64,000 nucleotides of DNA from Desulfobacterales bacterium (GTDB taxonomy: Bacteria > Desulfobacterota > Desulfobacteria > Desulfobacterales > JAHEIW01). Position 1 is the first letter of the stretch, and every line of letters starts with the position of its first letter. Location of the stretch: NCBI GenBank assembly GCA_020348305.1, contig CP070746.1:3713675-3777674 (forward strand). The letters run 5' to 3'. Below the pieces are notes generated by a model, which had not been told where the DNA came from, made no database searches, and saw only the letters and a list, made by a program, of their open reading frames with translations. The position numbers and the translations under genes are program-made. Positions 35,726 through 52,829 of this stretch are shown one piece after another.

Positions 35726-35728
35726 TTC

Positions 35729-35791
35729 AGAGGACGGATAACAGAGGACAGAGGTCAGAGGACAGATAAGAGAGGGCGGAGGTTAGAGTAT
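35729..35791 (+). repeat. Degenerate heptad array, consensus AGAGGAC (9 units)
   Basis: Nine contiguous 7-base units without a phase slip. AGA begins seven of nine; units AGAGGAC occur three times, with variants such as AGAGGTC, GGATAAC and AGATAAG. It fills the gap between two small exported-protein genes. Confidence 0.75.
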
Positions 35792-35822
35792 AAATTAGCT
35801 TCTAAATTTAAAGGAGATAGCC

Positions 35823-48415: not shown

Positions 48416-48706
48416 ACTATTTAAGATTTTCGTTACGAGTATCAAAACGGCTGGAAAGAAACAGAGATAGTCATTCAAGGTTTAACATCGGATTTTTGAA
48501 AACAAATGAAATTAAATTGCGGAGCGGAGCGACATCATTGTTCGATGTTCAACGTTGGAAGTTCGATGTTCGACGTTCATCTTTCAAAACAACCCTGCAC
48601 GGCATAAATGTAACTTGTGAATATTTGCAAAACAACTTAGTGCTTACGGTGCTTGGCCCCTGCCCGATAATCGATGAGATCATTAAGAGCCTATTTTTTG
48701 GAATCG
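48416..48706. other. Gene-free stretch with a heptad array
   Basis: Holds the GTTCGAT array (48540-48588). A 73-codon ORF (48496-48717) runs through the array (reads FDVQRWKFDVRRSSF). The rest of it, with TCEYLQNNLVLTVLGPCPIIDEIIKSLFFGIA, has no start signal or family, so it is not called. Confidence 0.5.
48540..48588 (+). repeat. Degenerate heptad array GTTCGAT (7 units)
   Basis: Seven contiguous units, six beginning GTT (GTTCGAT twice, GTTCAAC, GTTGGAA, GTTCGAC, GTTCATC), with no phase slip. Confidence 0.75.
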
Positions 48707-49576: not shown

Positions 49577-50740
49577 TCAGTATTTTATATAAATCCGTGG
49601 TACGCGTTCCATTACCGTAGAAACGACTTCATAATTGATGGTGTTTAGACGTGAAGCAATTTCGTCGGCGGTAATGGACTCATCGCCTTGCTGCCCAAAA
49701 ATCACGACCTCATCTTCTAAATTGACGTTTGAGAGATCTCTCACATCCAGCATGCTCAGATCCATGCATACCCGGCCGATGATCGGCACCCTTTGGCCGT
49801 GAACCAGCATGTCTCCGCGCGATGAAAGTAAGCGATTAAATCCGTCCGCATATCCGACAGGCACGGTGGCAATGGTGGTTGGTTTTTCAGTTTGATACGT
49901 GATCCCGTAGCTGACGTTAAAACCGGCGGGCACCTGCTTTAAATGAATGATTCTGCTTTTCAATGCCATAACCGGTTTGAGTGTTACCCTTTTTTTATTG
50001 ACTTCATCGGAAGGGTAAAGGCCGTAAGTCGCTATACCGGGCCGCACCAAATCCAGATGAGATTCCGGCAAATCGATTAAAGCTGAACTATTGGCGGCAT
50101 GCTTTATTGGGGGGTCCAACCCTGCTTGCCGCAGCCGGTTTAAAAATTCCAGGAAGATATCTAGCTGTTTATTCGCATAGGACTTATCAGCGCTATCTGC
50201 AGTGGCAAAGTGGGTGAATATGCCCTCGGTTTCAAGGCCGGTAAGCTTTGCAATCGATTCGATTTCACGAACCGGATCGCTTTTTGGATCCTGTGACGCA
50301 GTGGGCGACACCAAAACTTGCGGTAATAGTCCCAGTCTGCCCATGCCGCTGTCTACCTTAATATGAATGCGGATCGTTTTACCCCTTGATTGTGCCTTGC
50401 TGGAGAGTACTTCAGCGGTGGAGTAGCTGTAGACGGTTTGGGTGAGATCAAATTCAATCAGTTTGTCGGCCAGATCCGGCGGTGTGTAGCCGAAAATTAA
50501 AATGGGAGCCGCGAATCCCTCTGTTCTTAATTGAATTGCCTCATTAATTCTGGCAACGCCCAGCCACTCAGCACCGTTTTGCAGCGCTTCACGGGCAACT
50601 ACACATGCGCCGTGACCGTAGCCGTTTGCCTTCACCACGGCCATCAATCGGGCATTCGGATGGGTAATTCTTCTCAGCTCTTTAATATTATGTGCGTAGG
50701 CGTTTAGATCAACTTCGGCCCAAATCAGCGGTTTGTCCAC
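49577..50740 (-). CDS. alr: Alanine racemase
   Basis: 387 residues from a GTG at 50740. PLP lysine in MAVVKANGYGHGA near residue 38; the second catalytic base Tyr is in VSYGITYQTEKPT near 270. Also HIKVDSGMGRLG and GRVCMDLSMLDV. It converts L- to D-alanine for peptidoglycan. Upstream (50741-50985) is only repeat DNA, so it is probably transcribed with or after lipA. Confidence 0.93.
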   Translation of the reverse strand: MDKPLIWAEVDLNAYAHNIKELRRITHPNARLMAVVKANGYGHGACVVAREALQNGAEWLGVARINEAIQLRTEGFAAPILIFGYTPPDLADKLIEFDLTQTVYSYSTAEVLSSKAQSRGKTIRIHIKVDSGMGRLGLLPQVLVSPTASQDPKSDPVREIESIAKLTGLETEGIFTHFATADSADKSYANKQLDIFLEFLNRLRQAGLDPPIKHAANSSALIDLPESHLDLVRPGIATYGLYPSDEVNKKRVTLKPVMALKSRIIHLKQVPAGFNVSYGITYQTEKPTTIATVPVGYADGFNRLLSSRGDMLVHGQRVPIIGRVCMDLSMLDVRDLSNVNLEDEVVIFGQQGDESITADEIASRLNTINYEVVSTVMERVPRIYIKY

Positions 50741-50759
50741 AATGTTTTACTCCATATAG

Positions 50760-50812
50760 CCTGGATTCCTGCTCCCTGATCGGTGTAAGGGACAGGCTTC
50801 GCGGGAATGACA
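50760..50812. repeat. Interrupted copy of the TGGATTCC-GCGGGAATGAC hairpin repeat
   Basis: CTGGATTCC and CGCGGGAATGACAG flank a 25-30 base interior that itself pairs (CCTGCTCCCT with AGGGACAGG). The outer words match the common 'TGGATTCCCGC...GCGGGAATGAC' intergenic hairpin, another variant of which lies at 11711-11738. Confidence 0.45.
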
Positions 50813-50871
50813 GTCATTATTTCAGAAAATCCCCCGACAACTTATCTATTTAAGTTCATTGCACCTAAACG

Positions 50872-50983
50872 CGCAACCCGAATCACGAATCTCGCAACCC
50901 GCACTCAGCAACCCTAACACTCCAACACGCAACGCACAGCGCGTACCGCGCAACCCGCAATTCGTAACGCGTTATCCACAACC
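50872..50983. repeat. Degenerate heptad array CGCAACC (16 units)
   Basis: Sixteen contiguous 7-base units (112 bp) with no phase slip, between alr and lipA. Column 1 is C in 14 of 16 and column 4 is A in 15 of 16. CGCAACC itself recurs three times. It stops 2 bases before the lipA stop codon. Confidence 0.85.
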
Positions 50984-50985
50984 CA

Positions 50986-51870
50986 TCATGCTTTGACTGC
51001 CTGAAAGAGCTCTTTTGCATGATACGAACTGCGCACAAACGGTCCGCTGGCCACTTCAGAAAATCCCATTTTGCGGGCAATGTCACGCCAATGTTCAAAT
51101 TCTTCGGGAGGGATAAACCGTTTGACCGGCAGATGTTTTTTTGTTGGCTGCAAATATTGACCTAAGGTTAAGATACGGCAGCCTACACGCAAAAGATCCT
51201 CAAGCGTTTTTTTAATTTCCTCACGTTTTTCACCGAAACCGAGCATTAATCCTGACTTAGTGGGTATTGAAAAACCAAAGGCTTGGACGCGTTCAAGCAA
51301 TTCCAATGAGCGCTTATAGTTTGCTTCCGGACGTACTAAAGGATAGAGGCGCGCAACCGTTTCAATATTATGATTTAACACATCGGGCCGGGCTTGCAAG
51401 ACAGTTTGAAGCGCTTCGGCACTGCCCTGAAAATCCGGTATTAAAACTTCCACACATGCATCCGGTATTCTCTTGCGTATTTCCTTGATCGTTTTGGCAA
51501 AGAAACCGGCTCCGCCATCCGGCACGTCATCGCGGGTGACGGAGGTCACCACCACATATTTCAATCCTATTCGCTGAGCGACTTCCGCCACCCTAACCGG
51601 CTCATCCGGATCCGGTGGGGTGACAGGTCCTGCATCAACCGAACAAAAGCGACAGTTGCGGGTGCAGCGTGAACCCAGGATGAGAAATGTGGCTGTCTGT
51701 TGGCCAAAGCATTCCCAGATATTTGGGCACTTCGCTTCCTGGCATACCGTATGTAACCGGTCTTTGTTGATCATTGATCTGACATTTTCATAAATCGGAC
51801 CGGTGGGCAGCCGACGTTTTAACCAGCTGGGTTTTTGTACCAAAACGGTGGACTGAGATTGGTGTTTCAT
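50986..51870 (-). CDS. lipA: Lipoyl synthase
   Basis: 294 residues, radical SAM enzyme inserting two sulfurs into protein-bound octanoyl groups. Auxiliary cluster motif CQEAKCPNIWECF near residue 43, radical-SAM cluster CTRNCRFC near 69, and the C-terminal RSSYHA serine ligand. It follows lipB on the minus strand and matures the lipoyl group of GcvH encoded upstream. Its start codon lies inside a heptad array (51856-51918), which makes up its first five codons. Confidence 0.95.
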   Translation of the reverse strand: MKHQSQSTVLVQKPSWLKRRLPTGPIYENVRSMINKDRLHTVCQEAKCPNIWECFGQQTATFLILGSRCTRNCRFCSVDAGPVTPPDPDEPVRVAEVAQRIGLKYVVVTSVTRDDVPDGGAGFFAKTIKEIRKRIPDACVEVLIPDFQGSAEALQTVLQARPDVLNHNIETVARLYPLVRPEANYKRSLELLERVQAFGFSIPTKSGLMLGFGEKREEIKKTLEDLLRVGCRILTLGQYLQPTKKHLPVKRFIPPEEFEHWRDIARKMGFSEVASGPFVRSSYHAKELFQAVKA

Positions 51871-51972
51871 GTCTGTTTGGATGATTGGTGTTTAATATTT
51901 GGTGTCTTGTGTTTAGCCTTTTCATTCAATGTTTGGAAAGATTACCAAACACGAAACACAAAACGCTAAACA
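51856..51972. repeat. Pair of complementary heptad arrays across the lipB-lipA gap
   Basis: Array 51856-51918 (nine units; TTTGGTG and ATTGGTG are typical) overlaps the lipA start. Array 51945-51972 (four units, CCAAACA type) overlaps the lipB stop. They are mutually complementary, so the transcript between lipB and lipA can fold into a long imperfect hairpin. Confidence 0.7.
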
Positions 51973-52829
51973 CGTTCAGCCATTGATTCATGTTTTTGAT
52001 TTCGTAAAATACCTTCCAGCTCAAAATAGCTCTTTGTAAAAAGCGCTACGCCAAAAACCGCCTCTAATTGTTCTTTTAAGACCTCCCGCACGCTGTTCAT
52101 GGATAACTCCTCGGACAGCTCTTGCTTCATGGAGGTCATACGAACATCTTGCATACCGCAGGGTTGGATCCAGGAAAAGGGCTTTAAATCTAAATTAACG
52201 TTTAGGGCCAAGCCGTGAAAGCTGATGCCTCTGCGAAGCGCAATACCGATGCTGCCCATTTTCTTATCACCAACCCAGATTCCGCGGTTGGCGGGATTTC
52301 GTTCGGCCGTAATTCCCCACATCCCAACCGTCTGTAGCATCACTTCCTCTAATGCTTCAACAAAATCAACAACAGCCACCCTGGCGGCTTCCAAATCCAT
52401 GATGAAGTAAACGACGAGTTGTCCGGGGCCGTGATAGGTAATATTGCCGCCGCGTTCGACCTGGATCACCGATATGCCGGATTTCCCCAGATCGGACTTG
52501 GAGACGAACAGGTTCTCACTTGCCCCTCGGCGGCCTAGCGTAAACACACACGGGTGTTCTAAAAGCAAGACAATGTCTGATGTAATGGTTTTATTTATGC
52601 GAGCCTCGACAAGATCGGTTTGCAATTTCCAGGCTGTACGGTAATCAATGAGGCCTAAATCGACACAGAAACATTTATCGAGTTCCGAGTTCCGGGTTTC
52701 GGGTTGCGAGTCACGGGTTCCGGGTTTCGGATTTCGGGTTACGAGTTGCGCGTTTCGAGTTTCTGCTTGAACCTGTGCTATAGATTTTGAATTCGAATTA
52801 CTTACTCTGTTATTGTTACTTGAGATCAT
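51966..52829 (-). CDS. lipB: Octanoyl-(acyl carrier protein):protein octanoyltransferase with repeat-encoded N-terminus
   Basis: 287 residues. The LipB domain starts near Cys53 (CVDLGLIDYRTAW) and has RGGNITYHGPGQLVVYFI, KMGSIGIALRRGISFHGLALNV with the active Lys, and the catalytic Cys in IQPCGMQD. It transfers octanoyl from ACP to GcvH-type domains. Residues 1-52 are extra: residues 23-50 are four heptapeptides (first ETRNAQL, last ETRNSEL) encoded by the DNA array 52680-52763. No in-frame ATG, GTG or TTG lies between the array and the domain, so the array appears to be translated. Confidence 0.92.
   Translation of the reverse strand: MISSNNNRVSNSNSKSIAQVQAETRNAQLVTRNPKPGTRDSQPETRNSELDKCFCVDLGLIDYRTAWKLQTDLVEARINKTITSDIVLLLEHPCVFTLGRRGASENLFVSKSDLGKSGISVIQVERGGNITYHGPGQLVVYFIMDLEAARVAVVDFVEALEEVMLQTVGMWGITAERNPANRGIWVGDKKMGSIGIALRRGISFHGLALNVNLDLKPFSWIQPCGMQDVRMTSMKQELSEELSMNSVREVLKEQLEAVFGVALFTKSYFELEGILRNQKHESMAERV
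52680..52763. repeat. Degenerate heptad array GGGTTTC inside lipB (12 units)
   Basis: Exactly twelve 7-base units on the plus strand: column 1 G in 12/12, column 4 T in 12/12, column 7 C in 12/12, column 5 T in 11/12. On the coding (minus) strand three units make seven codons, giving four TRN/TRD heptapeptides. Confidence 0.9.

Follow-up and report, generated by a model that had tools for sequence, protein, structure and literature searches.

The lipA–alr gap and its heptad array

The array described here is a tandem run of 7-base units (heptads) between the genes for lipoyl synthase and alanine racemase in a Desulfobacterales genome of 6.97 Mb (G000), the nearest named relative of which is the MAG CP070694.1. 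Coordinates refer to the window, the whole 64-kb stretch of DNA that was analysed. The features needed below are as follows.

35728–35797, plus strand: heptad array, unit CAGAGGA, which also flanks IVP genes in the genomes G001, G003 and G004
48535–48586, plus strand: heptad array with the unit TGTTCGA/TGTTCGAC, belonging to a dispersed element also found in G001
49577–50740, minus strand: alr, alanine racemase (Pfam PF01168 and PF00842), downstream of the target array in the direction of transcription
50741–50867, minus strand: remainder of the lipA–alr gap, with neither heptads nor an inverted partner of the array
50868–50985, minus strand: target heptad array, 16–17 units of the CGGGTTG family read from lipA to alr
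50986–51870, minus strand: lipA, lipoyl synthase (Pfam Radical_SAM and LIAS_N), upstream of the array
51887–51974, minus strand: ORF-less heptad hairpin in the lipB–lipA gap, arms GTGTTTN/NAAACAC, at the same place in G001–G004
52679–52763, plus strand: second array of the target's unit family, 12 units, CGGGTT on the plus strand and so inverted relative to the target

The target array adjoins the lipA stop codon and is slightly longer than the interval 50872–50983 first noted in a sequence-only reading of this DNA. On recounting, that interval holds exactly the 112 bases and 16 heptads without a slip that had been claimed, with C in column 1 of 14 of the 16 units and A in column 4 of 15. Identity at lags of 7, 14, 21 and 28 bases is 0.56, 0.56, 0.55 and 0.56, compared with 0.19–0.35 at other lags. 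The four-lag mean (0.558) lies above the maximum of 0.404 found in 100 Markov-1 shuffles of the whole window, and the target shares its level of scoring with one other stretch of the 64 kb, 52646–52802. TRF at a score of 30 does not list the target because its units are too diverged. The flat profile implies that the units stand at about the same distance from a single consensus and gives no hint of recent local duplication over lags 7–28. The absence of slips, on which the sequence-only reading leaned, is real but is weaker evidence than it seems: other arrays here shift phase or unit, and the eye, or an ungapped score, favours slip-free stretches.

Read as sense RNA, the target is predicted to form one long stem with many G–U pairs (−46.2 kcal/mol, z = −2.95 against dinucleotide shuffles). 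The predicted fold ranks in the best 3–6% of heptad-preserving shuffles and is at most suggestive of a real stem. Between the array and alr, at about 50760–50813, lies a REP-like palindrome (GGATTCCTGC ... GCGGGAATGACAG); the gap has gathered two kinds of repeat, heptad array and REP-like palindrome.

At its annotated 5′ end lipB overlaps the other array of the target's unit family. As an inverted repeat the two arrays score 26, against at most 12 in shuffles. The lipB ORF extends 5′ into heptads (52679–52829), its first ~30 residues (QAETRNAQLVTRNPKPGTRDSQPETRN) being repeat-encoded, and the true start of lipB probably lies further in than annotated.

Comparison with relatives

Gaps were compared within the syntenic cluster gcvPA–gcvPB–lipB–lipA–alr. 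The lipA–alr gap measures 245 bp here, 13 bp in G001 (same genus), 38 bp in G002 and about 111 bp in G003 and G004. A heptad array is absent from this gap in the relatives compared, including the gaps of about 111 bp, which makes the target specific to its own lineage.

The ORF-less hairpin in the neighbouring lipB–lipA gap is kept in all of G000–G004, with approximately four to eight heptads per array and unrelated loops. Most of its 27 predicted pairs are retained, several through G–C/G–U changes, and the comparison indicates that the number of heptads and the loop can alter without loss of the unit or the pairing. Two stronger claims for this hairpin were set aside: covariation is weak, with one two-sided change and most pairs invariant, and conservation does not extend across the order but is as a rule limited to the family of G000.

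Period-7 arrays across the genome

Arrays were scanned for in 464 kb of G000, a sample that takes in the window, and in 400 kb of G001. In the former sample 20 period-7 arrays were found and none in shuffles, while periods 3–6, 8–13, 15, 18, 20 and 22 gave two arrays in total; G001 has 30 period-7 arrays in 380 kb. Most sampled stretches of the G000 contig (G000:C1) contain runs of exactly 100 N, which mark it as a scaffold with joins.

Units vary (CGGGTT, CAGAGGA, GGTGTCA, AAATCCG, TGTTCGA and others), and arrays of different units adjoin unrelated genes throughout the genome. Long ORFs are avoided (7% versus 78% coverage). Many arrays face an inverted partner across a short loop, and some of these pairs are nested within one another and differ in unit. 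Over all arrays, identity drops with lag from 0.60 to 0.50, 0.45 and 0.41, and the drop is weaker if arrays are detected at lag 14 or 21.

Two checks had been proposed together with the first description of the target, and both came out in its favour. Enrichment at lag 7 over shuffled controls is genome-wide and period-specific in the 464 kb of G000, and the orthologous gap of the closest relative, G001, is a 13-bp gap that lacks the array and does not carry the same bases unchanged.

IVP genes between inverted heptad arms

The lead that genes for four-helix-bundle proteins sit among repeats of this kind was tested through Pfam PF05635 (23S_rRNA_IVP, a four-helix bundle), the members of which are called IVP genes here. 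Elsewhere the family has been encountered in split 23S rRNAs and, via Avd, in diversity-generating retroelements. A first set comprised 36 loci of the order and a second, independent set 29 loci from across the phylum.

At 37 of the 65 IVP loci (19/36 in the first set, 18/29 in the second) the gene has an array no more than 200 bp away, compared with 0/19 Y1_Tnp and 5/29 lipA control loci. Array coverage beside IVP genes is 20% in the first 100 bp and 0–3% beyond 300 bp. The two flanks of one IVP gene carry a heptad particular to that locus and are inverted complements of each other (own versus other loci's flanks, p = 1.6e-18), which a mere intergenic preference of arrays does not explain. 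The arm pairs include TCAGTGG/CCACTGA (locus L240), CAGAGGA/TCCTCTG (L243 and L252), TGGTGTT/AACACCA (L260), GGTGTCA/TGACACC (L262 and L263) and, at L248 in genome G049, CGGGTTT/AAACCCG, which is the target's unit. The 5′ arm is G-rich and the 3′ arm C-rich.

A period-7 stretch is present in 88 of 162 IVP flanks and in none of the shuffles. Other flanks have period 8 (31 flanks) or 9 (eight flanks), the rest being rare; seven is thus not absolute and any model of the period must allow for these arms. Some cyanobacterial IVP arms (L302, L305 and others) are of period 8 or 9. Units are common to close IVP proteins and not to distant ones (permutation p = 0.02). Two relatives of the IVP protein in the PDB, 2gsc and 2rld, have five identical chains per entry. 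The corresponding expectation of five heptads per arm was not borne out clearly, the distribution being broad with a median of 7.4 and most often 5–7.

Among 58 genomes, with phylogeny ignored, those with CGRRTT arrays hold more IVP genes (rho = 0.51; for Y1_Tnp counts rho = 0.32). At least four IVP genes occur in 14 of the 17 genomes with CGRRTT arrays versus seven of the 41 others (p = 5e-6, phylogeny again ignored). The association is incomplete: some IVP genes have no array, G011 has arrays but no IVP match, and G000 itself has six IVP matches against approximately 300 arrays by extrapolation.

Filled and empty sites on plasmids

Plasmid-borne relatives of the IVP genes are nearly all cyanobacterial. 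Inverted flanks scoring at least 14 are found in 13 of 16 plasmid IVP regions, many of them heptads (p = 5e-4); the arm units are ACAGGTG in Anabaena 90, AAAAGCC in Pseudanabaena, GGCAGGG in Nostoc, AGGGTGT in Calothrix and GGACAGA in Azospirillum. In two type I-D CRISPR operons the interval between cas6 and cas4 holds an IVP gene with long heptad arms: L308 (Anabaena sp. 90 pANA02) and L311 (Pseudanabaena galeata pPg_01).

Three cyanobacterial plasmid sites have a counterpart on a matching plasmid from which the whole arm–IVP–arm block is missing in one piece. In Nostoc sp. UHCC 0302 the block is present on one plasmid and is represented by 21 bp on two others of the same strain, with flanks 93–98% identical on the left and 92–95% on the right. 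Tolypothrix PCC 7910 and PCC 7601 form a similar pair with flanks of about 90% identity. Between Anabaena 90 and Dolichospermum 0315A (flanks 98–99%) another, hairpin-like sequence replaces the block. The heptad arms lie at or near the block ends and no target-site duplication was seen at these sites. Such cases of presence and absence could be losses and not insertions.

CGGGTT loci in the same genome

Three further loci in G000 share the target's unit and its orientation relative to the downstream gene, which at the target is alr. At L138 an IVP gene with its middle deleted is flanked by a CGGGTT array, for which there is a short inverted partner. L191/L297 (G000:C1 2113682–2113829) has, behind its CGGGTT array, a leader and the opening codons of an IVP-like gene (KSYTDLEIY), joined in frame to a host gene; at L188/L186 (G000:C1 near 145554) the array and a similar leader precede a nitrilase-like gene. 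In both cases array, leader and IVP-type start codon lie ahead of the host gene. The L191 fusion implies that leaders and N-termini can come from elements of this kind. The idea of a whole family of host genes beginning with KSYxDLEIY, the IVP start, was rejected, as it matched twice in G000 and not at all in five relatives. Nor could the target be tied by direct homology to one IVP arm or to the other CGGGTT loci: its similarity to single CGGGTT relatives, the L138 arm included, falls mostly within that of heptad-preserving shuffles.

Interpretation of the target array

We consider that the target is probably what remains, after decay and without an ORF, of a small hairpin element that in full consists of an array, an IVP gene and the inverted array. 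The assignment is made on its unit, its orientation and its lineage-specific presence. The unit family flanks IVP genes at L248 and L138, but the target has neither an inverted second arm nor an IVP ORF, and as a lone array we call it a relic and not a member copy. In our view the array should not be taken for a free-standing repeat; its origin probably lies in an element that in full form holds an IVP gene. Several observations stand against such an origin. No IVP sequence was detected at the target by tblastn of the window or by a PF05635 search of the genome, no IVP leader was found there and no inverted DNA partner lies within 400 bp. Most arrays of the genome are without an IVP gene, and in Coxiella, where the stem-loop has been called selfish, it has been suggested that the IVP protein is not made in vivo (PMC4990558).

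The main rival is plain slippage, in which replication favours 7-base slips, heptads arise between genes and then drift, and IVP genes merely lie in the same places. Heptamers are over-represented in many bacteria and an explanation in terms of the polymerase footprint has been proposed (as cited in PMC4692102); the fall of identity with lag over all arrays is what local copying would give, and orthologous hairpins differ in the number of units. Slippage predicts neither the inverted copies of one unit that flank IVP genes, nor presence or absence as a block, nor units common to related IVP genes. The target shows no decay with lag and its units are degenerate, not near-identical, and periods 5, 6, 10 and 11 are nearly absent. 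It is on the inverted arms and the block-wise presence, and not on the target alone, that slippage fails, and we regard it as unlikely.

That the array is instead a functional repeat of lipA–alr, a regulatory protein-binding or RNA-structure site with its spacing kept by selection, would agree with the z-score of −2.95 for the sense RNA, with the persistence of the lipB–lipA hairpin in G000–G004 and with the regulatory roles proposed for Geobacter and Beggiatoa heptamers. The fold is less exceptional once heptads are preserved (best 3–6%), the array is missing from the lipA–alr gap of all relatives compared, and arrays of unrelated units stand beside unrelated genes genome-wide; a role of this kind appears very unlikely. 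We give hardly any credence to a REP-like or MITE-like repeat moved by a Y1/RAYT transposase. The genome does have 19 Y1_Tnp matches, and the ORF-less hairpins are MITE-like in size, one family having more than 60 matches in G001. Yet REP/RAYT systems place palindromes beside the Y1 transposase gene, and none of the 19 Y1_Tnp loci has a heptad array, on which ground the link was rejected; the correlation across genomes is weaker (rho 0.32 versus 0.51) and target-site duplication was not seen.

Returning to the hairpin element, its complete form would be a heptad array, a PF05635 gene for an IVP/S23-type four-helix-bundle protein and the same array inverted. The target would once have been part of such an element, and most arrays of G000, judging from the 20 in 464 kb, may be ORF-less derivatives. 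On transcription the heptads would form a stem with the IVP ORF in the loop. A ring-shaped IVP protein might bind the stem RNA, or single-stranded DNA, with one heptad per subunit, and a period of seven would then correspond to one heptad for each subunit of a pentameric ring. Such putative binding would hold the spacing while unread bases drift. ORF-less copies could be moved or kept in trans and would then decay into arrays like the target. Conceivably a reverse transcriptase of the host does the copying, given that diversity-generating retroelements include the related Avd proteins. The earlier proposal, that either the period is under selection or copying is active, withstands the checks set for it, among them the change in unit number between the lipB–lipA hairpins of G000–G004, and is partly supported overall. 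On this model both processes would operate, at different stages.

It is possible, if somewhat short of probable, that bacterial heptanucleotide repeats in general, the cyanobacterial STRRs included, are largely the intact or orphaned arms of one class of IVP hairpin elements spreading between genes, with the period of seven set by a ring-shaped IVP protein and each IVP lineage having its own unit.

Relation to known repeats and elements

The closest described system is the intervening sequence (IVS) of 23S rRNA. In Coxiella burnetii, tandem heptamers of GACAGAT lie directly before the IVP ORF in numbers that vary by strain, and a Xanthomonas protein of the IVP family has been called a homopentamer (PMC4990558). 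The likeness to our loci lies in an IVP ORF in the loop of a stem of terminal inverted repeats, which most IVP loci possess, and in heptamers of varying number beside the ORF. Unlike the IVS, the elements here are placed between protein genes, both arms are heptad arrays and many copies are ORF-less; the target itself lies in the lipA–alr gap, not in an rRNA helix, and holds no IVP ORF. Avd/bAvd (PF22296) shares the four-helix-bundle superfamily with IVP, appearing as a secondary match of 24 bits, below the cut-off of 40.

The comparison with STRRs of heterocystous cyanobacteria, offered in the sequence-only reading, proved a good lead, as inverted heptad arms of this kind also border IVP genes of cyanobacteria. 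STRRs, the Nostoc GGGGA(C/T)T and the Xanthomonas GGGAATC repeats (PMC4692102) resemble the arrays of G000 in being dispersed, intergenic, of several unit families and at times in inverted pairs. They have been described as free repeats, often near-perfect and G-quadruplex prone, and no link to IVP is drawn in that account, whereas the target is degenerate and not G4-like and its host is not a heterocystous cyanobacterium. The accompanying remark that this group has no described counterpart is wrong in a wide sense, given the heptamers of Geobacter metallireducens (PMC2700814), the Beggiatoaceae (PMC4679880) and Xanthomonas and Nostoc (PMC4692102). G. metallireducens, of the same phylum in a wide sense, has dispersed arrays of GGGACCG ×4 and MTYCTGA ×5 in 49 and 16 near-uniform copies, proposed to be regulatory (PMC2700814). 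The TAACTGA repeats of Beggiatoaceae, mostly just before start codons and proposed as translational sites, likewise form many intergenic arrays scattered without explanation, but are of one strict unit with few copies per set (PMC4679880).

In the literature searched, with partial coverage, heptamers and IVP are joined only for the Coxiella rRNA IVS (PMC4990558). The over-representation of heptamers, the STRRs, the Beggiatoa and Geobacter heptamers and the rRNA IVS elements were already known; IVP elements with heptad arms that lie outside rRNA, here in three phyla, appear to be new. Bacterial heptanucleotide repeats have been noted for decades and, to our knowledge, have neither an accepted function nor an accepted reason for seven. 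Through the IVP link the repeats acquire a likely source and the four-helix-bundle proteins a likely binding partner, and both questions become testable with one protein and one RNA. It may explain why 7-base repeats are found in so many bacteria and, if true, would account for much intergenic DNA of some genomes as well as for one way in which host genes gain new leaders and N-terminal extensions.

Dispersed and nested hairpins

Positions 48541–48637 of the window match G001:C1 5017370–5017466 at 85% identity over a TGTTCGA array followed by a conserved stretch. The two sites appear to be non-syntenic, consistent with a dispersed element. The ORF-less hairpin family with AAATCCG arms, represented at G001:C1 5047842–5048015, has expanded in G001, with more than 60 further matches there compared with six in G000. 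Nested hairpins at G001:C1 5062913, 5094415 and 5105749 use different heptad families for their stem layers.
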